Shown in pieces: positions 30,345 through 37,165 of a stretch of 64,000 nucleotides of DNA (the stretch's first letter is position 1; every line of letters begins with the position of its first letter). Made by a program: the position numbers and the translations under genes. The notes beneath the pieces were generated by a model, which saw only the letters and a program-made list of their open reading frames with translations, had not been told where the DNA came from and ran no database searches. The DNA comes from an uncultured Paracoccaceae bacterium (GTDB lineage Bacteria; Pseudomonadota; Alphaproteobacteria; Rhodobacterales; Rhodobacteraceae): NCBI GenBank assembly GCA_947492585.1, contig CANLND010000006.1, forward strand, positions 62,001-126,000, read 5' to 3'.

Positions 30345-31949
30345 TCAGACGGCAGAGCCTTTTTGCACCGTCGCCCCCGGCACGGGGGCACTGATGGTTT
30401 CAGTGACCGGGATGGCGTAGCTGGTTACGGGTGTGGACACATTGTGCAGCGCTAACGCCCCCAAAGGTGTTGCAGTACAGGTTTGGCAAAGGCTTTTGTC
30501 GTCAACAACGATCTGTTCACCAATGGTTTTTCCGTAATCGCCCAACCGCGCCGCGATGTTGGCGGCCTGACCGATGACCGTAAAATCCAACCGTTCGCGC
30601 GAACCGATATTACCATAGGTCACACTGCCAAAGGCGATACCGATGGCGCAATCCAGATCTGGGGTTTCACACTCCGCACCCATCGGACCCAGAGCCTGTA
30701 CGATAAAACGGGCCGAACGCAGTGCCTGTTCACGCGCCCGATCAGCATCGGCCCCCGCCGGAAAAACCGCCAGAACCGCATCGCCGATAAATTTCAACAC
30801 CTCGCCGCCATTATCTTCGATGATGTCAGACACGCCTTCGAAAAATGTATTGAGCAACGAAATATAGGCCCGTCTGCCCAATGTCTCTTCGAGCAGGGTA
30901 GAGCCGCGCAGGTCGCAGAACATGATAGCAGCATCGATTTCATCACCATCCCCACGGCGAATTTCACCTCCCAAGACCCGCGCACCCGACCGTTTTCCGA
31001 CATAAGTTTCCAACAGGGATTTGGCGTTTTCACGCTGCATAAAGACTTCGTAATAACGGGCGATCACCGCCGAGCATTCAAAGATCAGCCCTAAATTTTC
31101 GGTGGTGAACCCATCAGGGTGATCTGACGCGACGGTCATGACATTGATACGGCCATCCGAAAATGGCAGGGGCATGGCCACATAGTCGGTGGCGCCTGCG
31201 CGTTGCAGATCCTCTAGAATAGGAAATGCGCCGATTTCATTGCCTTTGGTAAGGCGATGACGCACGCCACCCAGCCCTTTTGAAACATGGCGCATTGGGC
31301 TGTCGCGATATTTGGGTTCATCATAGATTTCATAGGACGGCGCGCGCACCTGCAATTCAGATTCGCCTTTGGTCCAAATAAAATTGCGCCCGGCAATCAT
31401 TGGGTGCAAAGACCAGACCAGAACCGACATGCGGGAGAGGGCGATGCCCTGTTCGATGAACTTTTCAACCAGCGCCTCGGTAAAGGCGTCCGGCGTGGCG
31501 ATATAGGCCGCATCACGCAGCAACCAGTCGATCAGTGGGCCAGAAATGTTGCGATATGTCGGATTCGCGAGATCATTGTCCCCAGGGTCGACCTCCAGAT
31601 CTTCATGCGGCCCAAAACAAATGTGATTGCAGATTTCATGGGCTTCGCTGAAGGCGCAATCATATTGCCACGCAATGTTCGGCACTGTGCCTGCCGGAGA
31701 CTGTAGATCCCGATAGGTTGCGGTACCTTTGAAGGGGCAAAAGGTCTTGAGCGCAGTGGGAGCCGACAGGGGCGCGATCAGATCTGCGGTCGGGATATAA
31801 ATGGCCGGCGGCAGACGCGTTTCATACATCACTTTGGCGCGGCTGCTTTGCGCGATGAGCTGCCCTTTGTGGCGGACATAGATCGGCTTGTTTAACTGTT
31901 CGACCAGTATGCCGTAACCCGGGCGAGAGGGAGGGGCCTGCACATTCAT
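30345..31949 (-). CDS. DUF427 - sensory domain - class III adenylyl/guanylyl cyclase fusion
   Basis: A 534-residue soluble protein with three parts. Residues about 15-120 match DUF427: IYVRHKGQLIAQSSRAKVMYE, then IYIPTADLIAPL and the hallmark TFCPFKGTATYRDL. Residues about 130-300 resemble the N-terminal domain of rhizobial-type cyclases (EKFIEQGIALSRMSVLVWSLHPMIAGRNFIWT). Residues about 335-510 are a class III cyclase domain with metal-binding aspartates in IMFCDLRGSTLLEE and GEVLKFIGDAVLAVF. It should make cAMP (or cGMP) in response to an unknown signal. No membrane segment is visible. The gene follows a membrane winged-helix gene by about 100 bp on the same strand. Confidence 0.88.
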   Translation of the reverse strand: MNVQAPPSRPGYGILVEQLNKPIYVRHKGQLIAQSSRAKVMYETRLPPAIYIPTADLIAPLSAPTALKTFCPFKGTATYRDLQSPAGTVPNIAWQYDCAFSEAHEICNHICFGPHEDLEVDPGDNDLANPTYRNISGPLIDWLLRDAAYIATPDAFTEALVEKFIEQGIALSRMSVLVWSLHPMIAGRNFIWTKGESELQVRAPSYEIYDEPKYRDSPMRHVSKGLGGVRHRLTKGNEIGAFPILEDLQRAGATDYVAMPLPFSDGRINVMTVASDHPDGFTTENLGLIFECSAVIARYYEVFMQRENAKSLLETYVGKRSGARVLGGEIRRGDGDEIDAAIMFCDLRGSTLLEETLGRRAYISLLNTFFEGVSDIIEDNGGEVLKFIGDAVLAVFPAGADADRAREQALRSARFIVQALGPMGAECETPDLDCAIGIAFGSVTYGNIGSRERLDFTVIGQAANIAARLGDYGKTIGEQIVVDDKSLCQTCTATPLGALALHNVSTPVTSYAIPVTETISAPVPGATVQKGSAV

Positions 31950-32050: not shown

Positions 32051-32752
32051 TCAGATCATGCGGATCACATCTTTATTGATCGACAGGACATATCCGCGTT
32101 TGGCAATATTTTTGACCAGCAGTTCACTGACCAGCTGATTGCCCAAGGTATCGCGCAGACGCTTGATCCGGGTGGCCCCTGCGGCTTCCTCGCAGTCGGT
32201 TGCGTTGCGGCCTGAAATCACCGCCTCAATTTCGACACCAGACAGGACGTCATCATCCAGACGCGCCTCGGCCAAAACAGCCAGCGTTTCCATCGCCGCC
32301 GGGGTCAGCTTGAACCCCATATTGTTCAGATAGACGGTGTTTTCATCACGGCTGATCAGCAACTCTGTCACTTGGATTCCGGCCCGTTCAATCTGTGCCA
32401 TGCGCCGGTTCAGCGTTACCAACATCGCCAGGACGCCAAGCGCTGCAATCATCATGGCCGTGGCAAATACCAGCAAGACAAAGATCACCATCCGATAGCT
32501 GCCCAGCGTATCCGCAAAGGCGGTGCCCGACTGGGCAAGGATCTCAAGCAGCTTGATTTCGGCCTGTGTGGTCAGATCATTTTCAACAAACAACTGCTCA
32601 ACCTGTGCGTTAAACGCATTGGCATCTGGCAGAGTCAGTAACAGCACCGTTCCCGCAACCGCCAATAGCGCAACGATAGACACGATACCAATTGTGATAA
32701 TGCGGCTTCCAACCGCGCGGGCCTCAGAAACGGAGATAATAGGGTCCGGCAT
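32051..32752 (-). CDS. Two-TM protein with C-terminal OmpR-like winged helix
   Basis: A 233-residue protein of unrecognised family. TM1 is about 18-41 (IITIGIVSIVALLAVAGTVLLLTL), a ~45-residue loop follows (FNAQVEQLFVENDLTTQAEI), and TM2 is about 88-112 (MVIFVLLVFATAMMIAALGVLAML). Residues about 150-225 read like an OmpR-type winged helix: FKLTPAAMETLAVLAEARL, ATRIKRLRDTLGN, VKNIAKRGYVLSI. This would place a DNA-binding domain in the cytoplasm at the C-terminus of a membrane anchor. The ATG at 32752 has a very good ribosome-binding site (AAGGAAGGG) and overlaps the upstream gene by 29 bp. Function unknown; a membrane-tethered regulator is inference. Confidence 0.7.
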   Translation of the reverse strand: MPDPIISVSEARAVGSRIITIGIVSIVALLAVAGTVLLLTLPDANAFNAQVEQLFVENDLTTQAEIKLLEILAQSGTAFADTLGSYRMVIFVLLVFATAMMIAALGVLAMLVTLNRRMAQIERAGIQVTELLISRDENTVYLNNMGFKLTPAAMETLAVLAEARLDDDVLSGVEIEAVISGRNATDCEEAAGATRIKRLRDTLGNQLVSELLVKNIAKRGYVLSINKDVIRMI

Positions 32753-33017
32753 TGCCCTTCCTTTGCTTCAATCCTTCGGGTCCAAAGACCGACATCACGT
32801 TTAGCAAGGTCCAGCCCTGAGCGGAAATGCGTGCCGCGATTTCGCCCTTGGCCGCCTGTTTCTTGCAGACCCCGCGCAACTGCACAACGCCATAGTGAAG
32901 GCGCAGGGGGTTGTCCTTTTTGGCTTTGTAGTCGGCATAGCAATCTGCGGCCGAAACCGGAGCAGACAGGCCAAGTACAAGCACGACGCTGAGCGGAAGA
33001 AGGGTTTTGTACATCAT
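32724..33017 (-). CDS. Small exported protein of unknown function
   Basis: A 97-residue protein with a signal peptide (MMYKTLLPLSVVLVLGLSAPVSA) and a mature part beginning ADCYADYKAKKDNPLRLHYG, with LRGVCKKQAAKGEIAARISAQGW and the end NAGPYYLRF. Two cysteines could form a disulphide. I do not recognise a named family, although similar small proteins occur in Rhodobacterales. The start at 33017 has CAGGA 7 nt upstream and gives a clean signal peptide; the ORF-track start at 33167 adds a proline-rich leader with no support. It overlaps the winged-helix gene by 29 bp, so the two are likely coupled. Confidence 0.7.
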   Translation of the reverse strand: MMYKTLLPLSVVLVLGLSAPVSAADCYADYKAKKDNPLRLHYGVVQLRGVCKKQAAKGEIAARISAQGWTLLNVMSVFGPEGLKQRKGNAGPYYLRF

Positions 33018-33195
33018 AGGGTCATCCTGCGCGGAACCACCGCGATATTCAATAACCACAGGGGGTTGATCACGCTGATATTCGATAACAGGGGGCTGAT
33101 ATTGCCTGTCTGACGGGGCTGGCCGCAATTTGGGACCAGCACAAGACTTGTTCAACACAGGTCGCATGAACCCACCGATTGGAAAGGCCCCTTAG

Positions 33196-33666
33196 ATGAC
33201 ACGCACCGCTTCTGCAAAACCCCACCGGAAATTCATCGCCTTAGTTCTGGCCGCCTCATTGGTCATCAGCGGCTTTTCAGCCGCCCCGGCCCGCGCTGGA
33301 GACGACGTCGCCAAATTCATAGCCGGGGCTGCCCTGCTTGGTATTTTGGGCGCTGCGATCAATGATGCAAAACAGGATCGTCGCGACCGCCACAAACAGA
33401 CAACCCATCGCCCGTACAAACAACACCATCCCAAACCCATTCCACCACGAGTTGCGCGTTATGACTTACCGGCAAAATGTGTGCGTAACTTTCACGGGCA
33501 TGGCCCACGCAGCATACTGTCGCGTGGATGCCTGAAACGGAACTACACTCAGGTTCAGAATTTGCCACGCTCGTGCCGGATCTCTTACTGGAATGGCGAC
33601 CGCCAGCGCAAAGGCTACGGCACCCGGTGTCTGCACAAACATGGATACCGCCTGGTACACCGCTAA
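33196..33666 (+). CDS. Exported basic histidine-rich protein of unknown function
   Basis: A 156-residue protein. The N-terminus is a signal peptide (FIALVLAASLVISGFSAAPARA). It is followed by a glycine/alanine-rich hydrophobic stretch (VAKFIAGAALLGILGAAI) that could be a membrane or RcnB-like segment. A basic, histidine-rich linker (KQTTHRPYKQHHPKPIPP) and a C-terminal part with four cysteines follow (AKCVRNFHGHG, RGCLKRNY, RSCRISYWNGDRQRKGYGTRCLHKHGY). Function unknown; metal or envelope binding is only a guess from composition. It is divergent from the small exported protein gene and ends at a strong terminator. Confidence 0.7.
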   Translation: MTRTASAKPHRKFIALVLAASLVISGFSAAPARAGDDVAKFIAGAALLGILGAAINDAKQDRRDRHKQTTHRPYKQHHPKPIPPRVARYDLPAKCVRNFHGHGPRSILSRGCLKRNYTQVQNLPRSCRISYWNGDRQRKGYGTRCLHKHGYRLVHR

Positions 33667-35704: not shown

Positions 35705-35773
35705 CCCCTTGGGACAGGGATGCAGTATTGGGGCATCGCCCCTATATTTGTTCCTGCGAGAGAGGGACACATC

Positions 35774-37165
35774 ATGACCGATACGGTGCTGGATCCAGCA
35801 AAGTCACGTGAATTGGCAGCACAGCCGGATCGTTTGGGCGACAGCGATGTGGCTGACAATGATCACGCGCTACAGTCGCTAATGGAACACAAACGGCGCG
35901 GGCTGGAATTGGCCGTGCGGGCCCGTTGGGTGGCCATGATTGTGACCTCAGTGTTTTTGCTGTTTGTGTACCCCGATTGGGGCGTGGTGTACTATTGGGC
36001 GCTGTCAGGCCTGTTGTGCCTGAACGGGTATTTCATCCAGAGAATAGGCCGGGTGGGGCAATCCCCCCGCGAGTTGTCTTTGATCTTTGTTGATCTGGCC
36101 ATCCTGACTTTTGCCATTGTGATGCCCAACCCCTTTGCGAGCGTCGAACTGCCTGTCGCCTTCCAATATCGTTTTGACAATTTCATGTATTTCTACGTGA
36201 TTCTGGCAACCGGGACCCTCGCCTATTCCTGGCGCACGGTGATCACCATCGGCACCTGGACCACGGTAATCTGGTTTGTGGGTCTTTTTCTGGCCTGGTC
36301 CCTGTCAACTCCGGACGACCAGTTGCAGGCCTTGGTCTATGACGCCTATGTCGAATACCCACGTATTCTGGAACTCTTTGATCCCAACAGTTTCATGTTT
36401 TCCTTCCGGGTGCAGGAAGTCATGGTGTTTTTGCTGACTGCCGTGATTTTGGGGTTTTCGATCCGCAGGTTTGACAGGTTGCTGCTGTCCAACGCGGCCC
36501 TGACGCGCGAACGGGTGAACCTGTCGCGGTACTTTTCACCCAATGTTGTGGATCAGCTGTCCAAGAACGATGAACCCTTGAAGCAGGTAAAGCGCCAAAA
36601 GGTCGCGATCCTGTTTGTCGACATCGTCGGTTTCACCCAGATCTCAGAGGATCAAAACCCCTACGAGGTGATCACACTCCTGCGTGAATTTCATGCCCGT
36701 ATGGAGCGGGAGGTGTTCCGACACAGCGGGACATTAGACAAATATCTGGGCGACGGATTGATGGCGACCTTTGGCACTCCAATTGCCGGTGAGCAAGACG
36801 CCGCAAACGCGCTTGCCTGCGCCCGAGCGATGCAAGAGACCATGGCGCGCTGGAACCAAGAGCGCAAACGCCGGGGGGAAACGCCAATCCACATTGGGGT
36901 TGGGGTGCACTATGGCGACACGCTGCTCGGCGACATTGGCGCAAACCGTCTGGAATTTGCGGTGATTGGCACCGCTGTCAACGTGGCCTCGCGACTTGAA
37001 GGCCTGACCCGCACGCTAGAGGCGCGGATTGTCATCAGCAAAGTAGCGTTTGATCGGGCCAGAACGGTTGCGGTTGATCCCGCGCTGTTCAACGATTTTG
37101 TCCCAAAAGACAATCAAGCCGTACGCGGGCTCAGAGACCCCATATCGATTTACTACCTGCCCTGA
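35774..37165 (+). CDS. Membrane-bound class III adenylyl/guanylyl cyclase
   Basis: A 463-residue protein. Residues about 40-245 hold roughly six hydrophobic segments (WVAMIVTSVFLLFVYPDWG, LIFVDLAILTFAIVMP, VMVFLLTAVILGFSI). A short linker follows (SRYFSPNVVDQLSKNDEP), then a cyclase catalytic domain at about 265-440 with metal aspartates in AILFVDIVGFTQISED and DKYLGDGLMATFG, and the transition-state region EFAVIGTAVNVASRLEGL. It makes cAMP or cGMP, with the membrane part as probable sensor. It is a second cyclase within 6 kb of the DUF427 fusion but has an unrelated N-terminus. The start is ATG 35774 (MTDTVLDPAKS). Confidence 0.9.
   Translation: MTDTVLDPAKSRELAAQPDRLGDSDVADNDHALQSLMEHKRRGLELAVRARWVAMIVTSVFLLFVYPDWGVVYYWALSGLLCLNGYFIQRIGRVGQSPRELSLIFVDLAILTFAIVMPNPFASVELPVAFQYRFDNFMYFYVILATGTLAYSWRTVITIGTWTTVIWFVGLFLAWSLSTPDDQLQALVYDAYVEYPRILELFDPNSFMFSFRVQEVMVFLLTAVILGFSIRRFDRLLLSNAALTRERVNLSRYFSPNVVDQLSKNDEPLKQVKRQKVAILFVDIVGFTQISEDQNPYEVITLLREFHARMEREVFRHSGTLDKYLGDGLMATFGTPIAGEQDAANALACARAMQETMARWNQERKRRGETPIHIGVGVHYGDTLLGDIGANRLEFAVIGTAVNVASRLEGLTRTLEARIVISKVAFDRARTVAVDPALFNDFVPKDNQAVRGLRDPISIYYLP

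Follow-up and report, generated by a model that had tools for sequence, protein, structure and literature searches.

What does a membrane protein that carries its DNA-binding domain at the C-terminus do, and with which partner does it do it? The stretch of 64,000 nucleotides analysed here (the window), from the genome of an uncultured Paracoccaceae bacterium, encodes such a protein: two predicted transmembrane (TM) helices are followed by a predicted OmpR-type winged helix (wHTH). Based on comparisons of the locus across related genomes, we suggest, with a probability of about 0.68, that this protein is a membrane-tethered one-component regulator with the reversed ToxR/CadC order, that it has a secreted partner, and that it is autoregulated and linked to complex I.

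The regulator gene is present in one copy in the window's genome, and the open reading frame has exactly the boundaries listed in Table 1. By Kyte-Doolittle hydropathy, the window protein has two TM segments, and so do the most distant of the homologues checked. The two segments enclose a predicted periplasmic loop of ~40 residues with the sequence pattern LPDANAFNA.VE.LFVENDLT..AEIKLLEILAQSGTAF. A spread of 25 homologues shows 58-87% identity with the window protein; the putative recognition helix of the C-terminal domain and a large part of the loop are nearly invariant, and a nearly invariant stretch of the family reads EAAGATRIKRLRD-LGNQ. Because of this identity and these nearly invariant stretches, the reading frame is not a product of chance. 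The mean numbers of K+R and D+E are 2.7/1.7 before TM1, 3.6/7.1 in the loop and 4.1/1.2 after TM2. This charge pattern favours an N-in/C-in topology and, by the positive-inside rule, the C-terminal domain is thus most likely cytoplasmic.

Table 1. Features of the regulator locus, in positions of the window; residue numbers refer to the regulator.
Feature	Position	Strand	Basis and remarks
Membrane-anchored regulator, 2 TM + predicted C-terminal OmpR-type wHTH	32051..32752	(-)	233 aa, ATG start; ORF, Pfam, hhalign, alignments
TM helix 1, about residues 19-41	32630..32698	(-)	hydropathy
Conserved acidic periplasmic loop (predicted), about residues 42-81	32510..32629	(-)	conservation and charge
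TM helix 2, about residues 86-112	32417..32497	(-)	hydropathy
OmpR-type winged helix (predicted), about residues 130-225	32078..32365	(-)	Pfam Trans_reg_C 148-223; hhalign with controls
Putative recognition helix, residues 190-205, nearly invariant AAGATRIKRLRD-LGN	32138..32185	(-)	alignments; register from hhalign
Small secreted protein, 96 aa, upstream partner	32724..33014	(-)	signal peptide, two conserved Cys, GWTLLNV...LRF
Overlap of secreted-protein and regulator genes, 29 nt, conserved	32724..32752	(-)	locus comparison
Putative promoter TTGAAT-17-CAGGAT, ends just before the start codon (leaderless?)	33024..33052	(-)	-35 conservation
Predicted operator 3, GTTATTGAATATC, covers the conserved -35	33044..33056	(-)	upstream-region comparison
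Predicted operator 2, GTTATCGAATATC, 33 bp upstream of operator 3	33077..33089	(-)	upstream-region comparison
Predicted operator 1, partial, GACAGGCAATATC, 21 bp upstream of operator 2	33098..33110	(-)	upstream-region comparison

The Pfam model Trans_reg_C matches residues 148-223 of the 233 residues of the window protein (E = 4e-4) with 20.8 bits, which is below the curated cut-off of 26.2 bits. The same model matches 43 of 43 regulator homologues (best E 4e-6) and is the sole Pfam family common to all 43; a receiver-domain family is absent from the Pfam matches of the regulator and these homologues. When the C-terminal profile was aligned by hhalign with six OmpR-type response regulators of the window's own genome, it scored 30.6 (P = 8.7e-5), as compared to a maximum of 19.8 for 100 column-shuffled profiles and 17.9 for the N-terminal half of the regulator. 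Together with the hydropathy data, these results uphold what an earlier note on this DNA had proposed from the letters, i.e. two TM segments with a C-terminal OmpR-like winged helix and a domain order that is the reverse of that in ToxR/CadC. The structure prediction for which that note had asked gave a divided answer. In an AlphaFold2 model built from 43 sequences with 71-92% identity, the order of elements in the C-terminal domain, two strands and then helices, fits an OmpR-type wHTH, but the fold itself is not confirmed, with a pLDDT of 56 overall and <50 across this domain. Sequence searches of the PDB gave no credible relative of the regulator or of its secreted partner. Altogether, the profile evidence supports that the C-terminal domain is a divergent OmpR-type winged helix.

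The regulator is widespread in its family. A single-sequence search found one homologue each in 158 of the 199 family genomes sampled, and a profile search found one copy in 261 of 296 genomes of the order. In a class-wide sample (n=385), five genomes of the regulator's own family match, and there is only one match outside the family (E = 7e-4). Named relatives belong, among others, to Leisingera, Phaeobacter, Ruegeria, Tritonibacter, Roseovarius, Shimia and Thalassovita. By contrast, one genus (g24) has at least 12 genomes without the regulator and is not represented among the matches listed, which we read as a lineage-wide loss.

The constant partner of the regulator is a small secreted protein, the gene for which lies upstream and overlaps the regulator gene. 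This gene lies directly upstream of the regulator gene and on the same strand in 20 of 20 distant genomes, it accompanies the regulator in all 80 of 80 named close relatives, and it is missing from 38 of 38 tested genomes without the regulator, where the search used a profile that does find the gene in regulator-bearing genomes. Thus, the two genes are adjacent throughout and absent together. Their 29-nt overlap recurs in almost every locus (23 nt in two), and a Shine-Dalgarno-like sequence of the regulator, AAAGGAAGG, sits within the secreted-protein gene, the start of which may be one codon earlier, at 33017. The locus is near rnhB-ccrM, which is on the opposite strand, in 20/20 distant genomes. 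ccrM is kept in 31 of the 33 genomes searched among the 38 without the regulator, and an inspection of rnhB-ccrM in eight genomes that lack the pair revealed no remnant of it there. Following the signal peptide, the secreted protein has an invariant C25, a nearly invariant C50, the motifs YKAK, LHYGV and GW-LL, and a C-terminal LR[FY]. It matches no Pfam family; the idea that it is DUF4177-like, which came from a GW motif, found no support in Pfam. AlphaFold2 predicts a strand-strand-helix-strand-helix arrangement (pLDDT 77 overall, about 90 over the core), and a fold search of the PDB with this model gave nothing better than E = 0.3. In 11 of the 20 distant genomes, the region upstream of the pair is adjoined by a divergent gene (33196-33666 (+) in the window) for a small basic secreted protein, which also has no Pfam family.

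The region upstream of the pair holds a conserved array that reads, in order, GACAGGCAATAWC, GTTATCGRATAWC and GTTATTGAATAWC. Two of these predicted operators are inverted repeats of the form GTTAT-YGR-ATAWC, and the third site is partial. Among 101 upstream regions, 83 carry two sites that differ from GTTATYGRATAWC at no more than one position and 16 carry a single such site, so that 99/101 have at least one site; the last two operators are spaced by 33 or 32 bp in nearly all regions. A -35 element, TTGAAT, is inside the lower operator in 95 of 97 upstream regions and is followed, 17 nt on, by CA---T before the start codon. While a generic sigma-70 scan reported no promoter upstream of the pair, this putative element, TTGAAT-17-CAGGAT in the window, is the only promoter candidate seen there. 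An operator placed over the -35 implies control of the regulator's own promoter. In the window's own genome, the only exact matches to GWTATYSRATAWC are the two upstream of the pair, and 11 other regulator-bearing genomes have 2-5 sites each, with 20 of the 33 sites at the regulator operon. From the position of the sites and their co-occurrence with the regulator gene, we infer that the regulator is the protein that binds them. OmpR-family domains usually bind direct repeats, whereas the predicted sites are inverted repeats, and this counts against such a pairing.

A second probable target lies in the nuo (complex I) operon. In a one-mismatch scan of eight genomes, an orthologous site between nuoF and DUF5333-nuoG was common to six, and in a seventh (G730) a site is located 529 bp before nuoG; the other matches examined were coding or were not common to several genomes. 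The gene before nuoG is assigned to DUF5333 by Pfam with E = 3e-40, and no mention of DUF5333 was found in the literature searched. This gene lies between nuoF and nuoG, and in some genomes nuoF is followed by a small lipoprotein gene as well. We then compared 30 genomes, 15 with and 15 without the regulator, over the 1500 bp that precede nuoG, at a score of >=15.8 (99% of shuffled regions scored <14.6). A site was present in 9/15 regulator-bearing genomes vs 0/15 genomes without the regulator. Without the two discovery genomes, the numbers are 7/13 vs 0/15 (p = 0.0014) and, among genomes with DUF5333 before nuoG, 7/9 vs 0/8 (p = 0.0023), although these Fisher tests take related genomes as independent and hence overstate their independence. 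The regulator-less genomes with DUF5333 before nuoG represent six genera. A clear site is missing in six of the 15 regulator-bearing genomes, and four of these six are without DUF5333 at this position. These observations suggest that the DUF5333 gene is a second target of the regulator. One genome without the regulator (G637), the congeners of which have it, carries GACATTGCATGTC at the operator position, 547 bp before nuoG, and this sequence may be a decayed site.

The main rival to this assignment is that the predicted operators belong to another regulator, e.g. RSP_1663, which we take to be CceR, the LacI-type regulator of central carbon metabolism, and that the membrane protein does something else. 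The predicted RSP_1663 motif is [AGT]GTT N6-8 AAC[ACT], with many predicted metabolic targets including pdhAB (PMC4344238). It overlaps with the operators described here, which are inverted repeats that can likewise be written as GTT-N7-AAC, and a one-mismatch match in the window's genome, GTTAGTGGATAAC, is about 190 bp before the gene for pyruvate dehydrogenase E1 alpha (pdhA) and looks more like a CceR site. However, the conserved part of the operon sites is their centre, TAT-YGR-ATA, while the outer letters are free, with AAC replaced by ATC in 128 of 182 operon sites, and the nuo sites include GATATTGAATATC and GCTATTGAATAGC. Moreover, RSP_1663 has many predicted targets, whereas the operator motif is nearly unique in each genome, with almost no sites elsewhere, which does not fit the CceR regulon with its many central-metabolism targets. 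Finally, the presence of the sites tracks the presence of the membrane regulator. We therefore disfavour CceR as the owner of the predicted operators and consider it unlikely.

If the winged helix had ceased to bind DNA and instead mediated protein contacts, for example to the secreted partner or to complex I, its divergence from the Trans_reg_C model and its score below the cut-off would be accounted for. Such a role is hard to reconcile with the putative recognition helix, one of the best-conserved regions of the regulator, and with the matching set of predicted operators that co-occurs with the gene, and we regard this possibility as quite improbable. We give similarly little credence to the idea that the protein tethers DNA to the membrane, with few sites, mainly at its own locus, that anchor a chromosomal region instead of controlling transcription. 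The very small number of sites per genome and their clustering at the regulator gene agree with a tether, and DNA binding is reported to direct where the membrane-integrated regulator CadC localizes (PMC6320335); on the other hand, one operator falls exactly over the -35 and another site precedes a gene in an unrelated operon, as regulation predicts.

The other suggestion of the earlier note, that the regulator and the adjacent DUF427-cyclase make up a membrane-to-DNA signalling unit, is very improbable and did not hold up, because the cyclase gene, which is on the same strand in the window and is kept next door in 57 of 80 close relatives, adjoins the regulator in only 7 of 20 distant genomes, while the regulator with its secreted partner is almost universal in the family; the cyclase is thus a local neighbour and not part of a family-wide conserved neighbourhood. 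On either side of the locus is a class III cyclase gene, at 30345-31949 (-) and 35720-37165 (+). Both are near the locus in the same 7/20 distant genomes, which may point to their joint gain or joint retention in one subclade.

We return to the membrane-tethered, autoregulated one-component regulator as the preferred reading. In this model, the periplasmic loop would sense the state of the envelope, with the secreted protein acting as a co-regulator in a role similar to that of ToxS, and the cytoplasmic wHTH would bind the GTTAT-YGR-ATAWC inverted repeat as a dimer. With sites in the regulator's own promoter and one of them over the -35, binding would result in autoregulation of either sign, with the promoter repressed by occlusion or, as a weak promoter, activated in a PhoB-like manner. 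The single site before DUF5333-nuoG would place a small secreted protein of the complex I operon under the same switch. More tentatively, and with more doubt than confidence, we speculate that the pair could form a core Rhodobacteraceae switch from envelope to respiration, in which the secreted two-cysteine protein reports on the periplasm, either its redox state or its state of assembly, and DUF5333 in the nuo operon is adjusted. About 88% of the genomes sampled from a dominant marine bacterial order carry the gene pair. With the predicted operators and the short list of targets (the pair's own operon and the complex I operon), the function of the pair can be tested directly in laboratory strains of Ruegeria or Phaeobacter.

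In the literature searched, we found no description of this regulator family, the gene pair, the DNA targets or the reversed layout. ToxR-like membrane-integrated one-component regulators have an N-terminal cytoplasmic DNA-binding domain (PMC5936718). Similarly to the ToxR family (ToxR/TcpP/CadC/PsaE), the regulator described here couples a predicted OmpR-type wHTH directly with a membrane anchor and a periplasmic portion and has no phosphoacceptor (receiver) domain and, as in ToxR-ToxS, a periplasmic partner is encoded in the same operon. However, the wHTH is C-terminal here and N-terminal in ToxR; two TM helices with a short loop stand in place of one TM helix and a C-terminal periplasmic domain; and the partner gene is upstream, with a product that is predicted to be soluble and secreted. 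Because these features of the ToxR layout are absent, the regulator is not a member of the ToxR-like family by layout, but it probably works like one. With OmpR/PhoB response regulators it shares the C-terminal Trans_reg_C winged helix, predicted here, but its N-terminal half consists of two TM helices that replace the receiver domain with its phosphoacceptor Asp, and its predicted sites are inverted and not direct repeats; without a receiver domain, it is not a response regulator. Thus, the reversed layout would mean that OmpR-type DNA-binding domains are tethered to the membrane not only from the end used in ToxR but also from the other.
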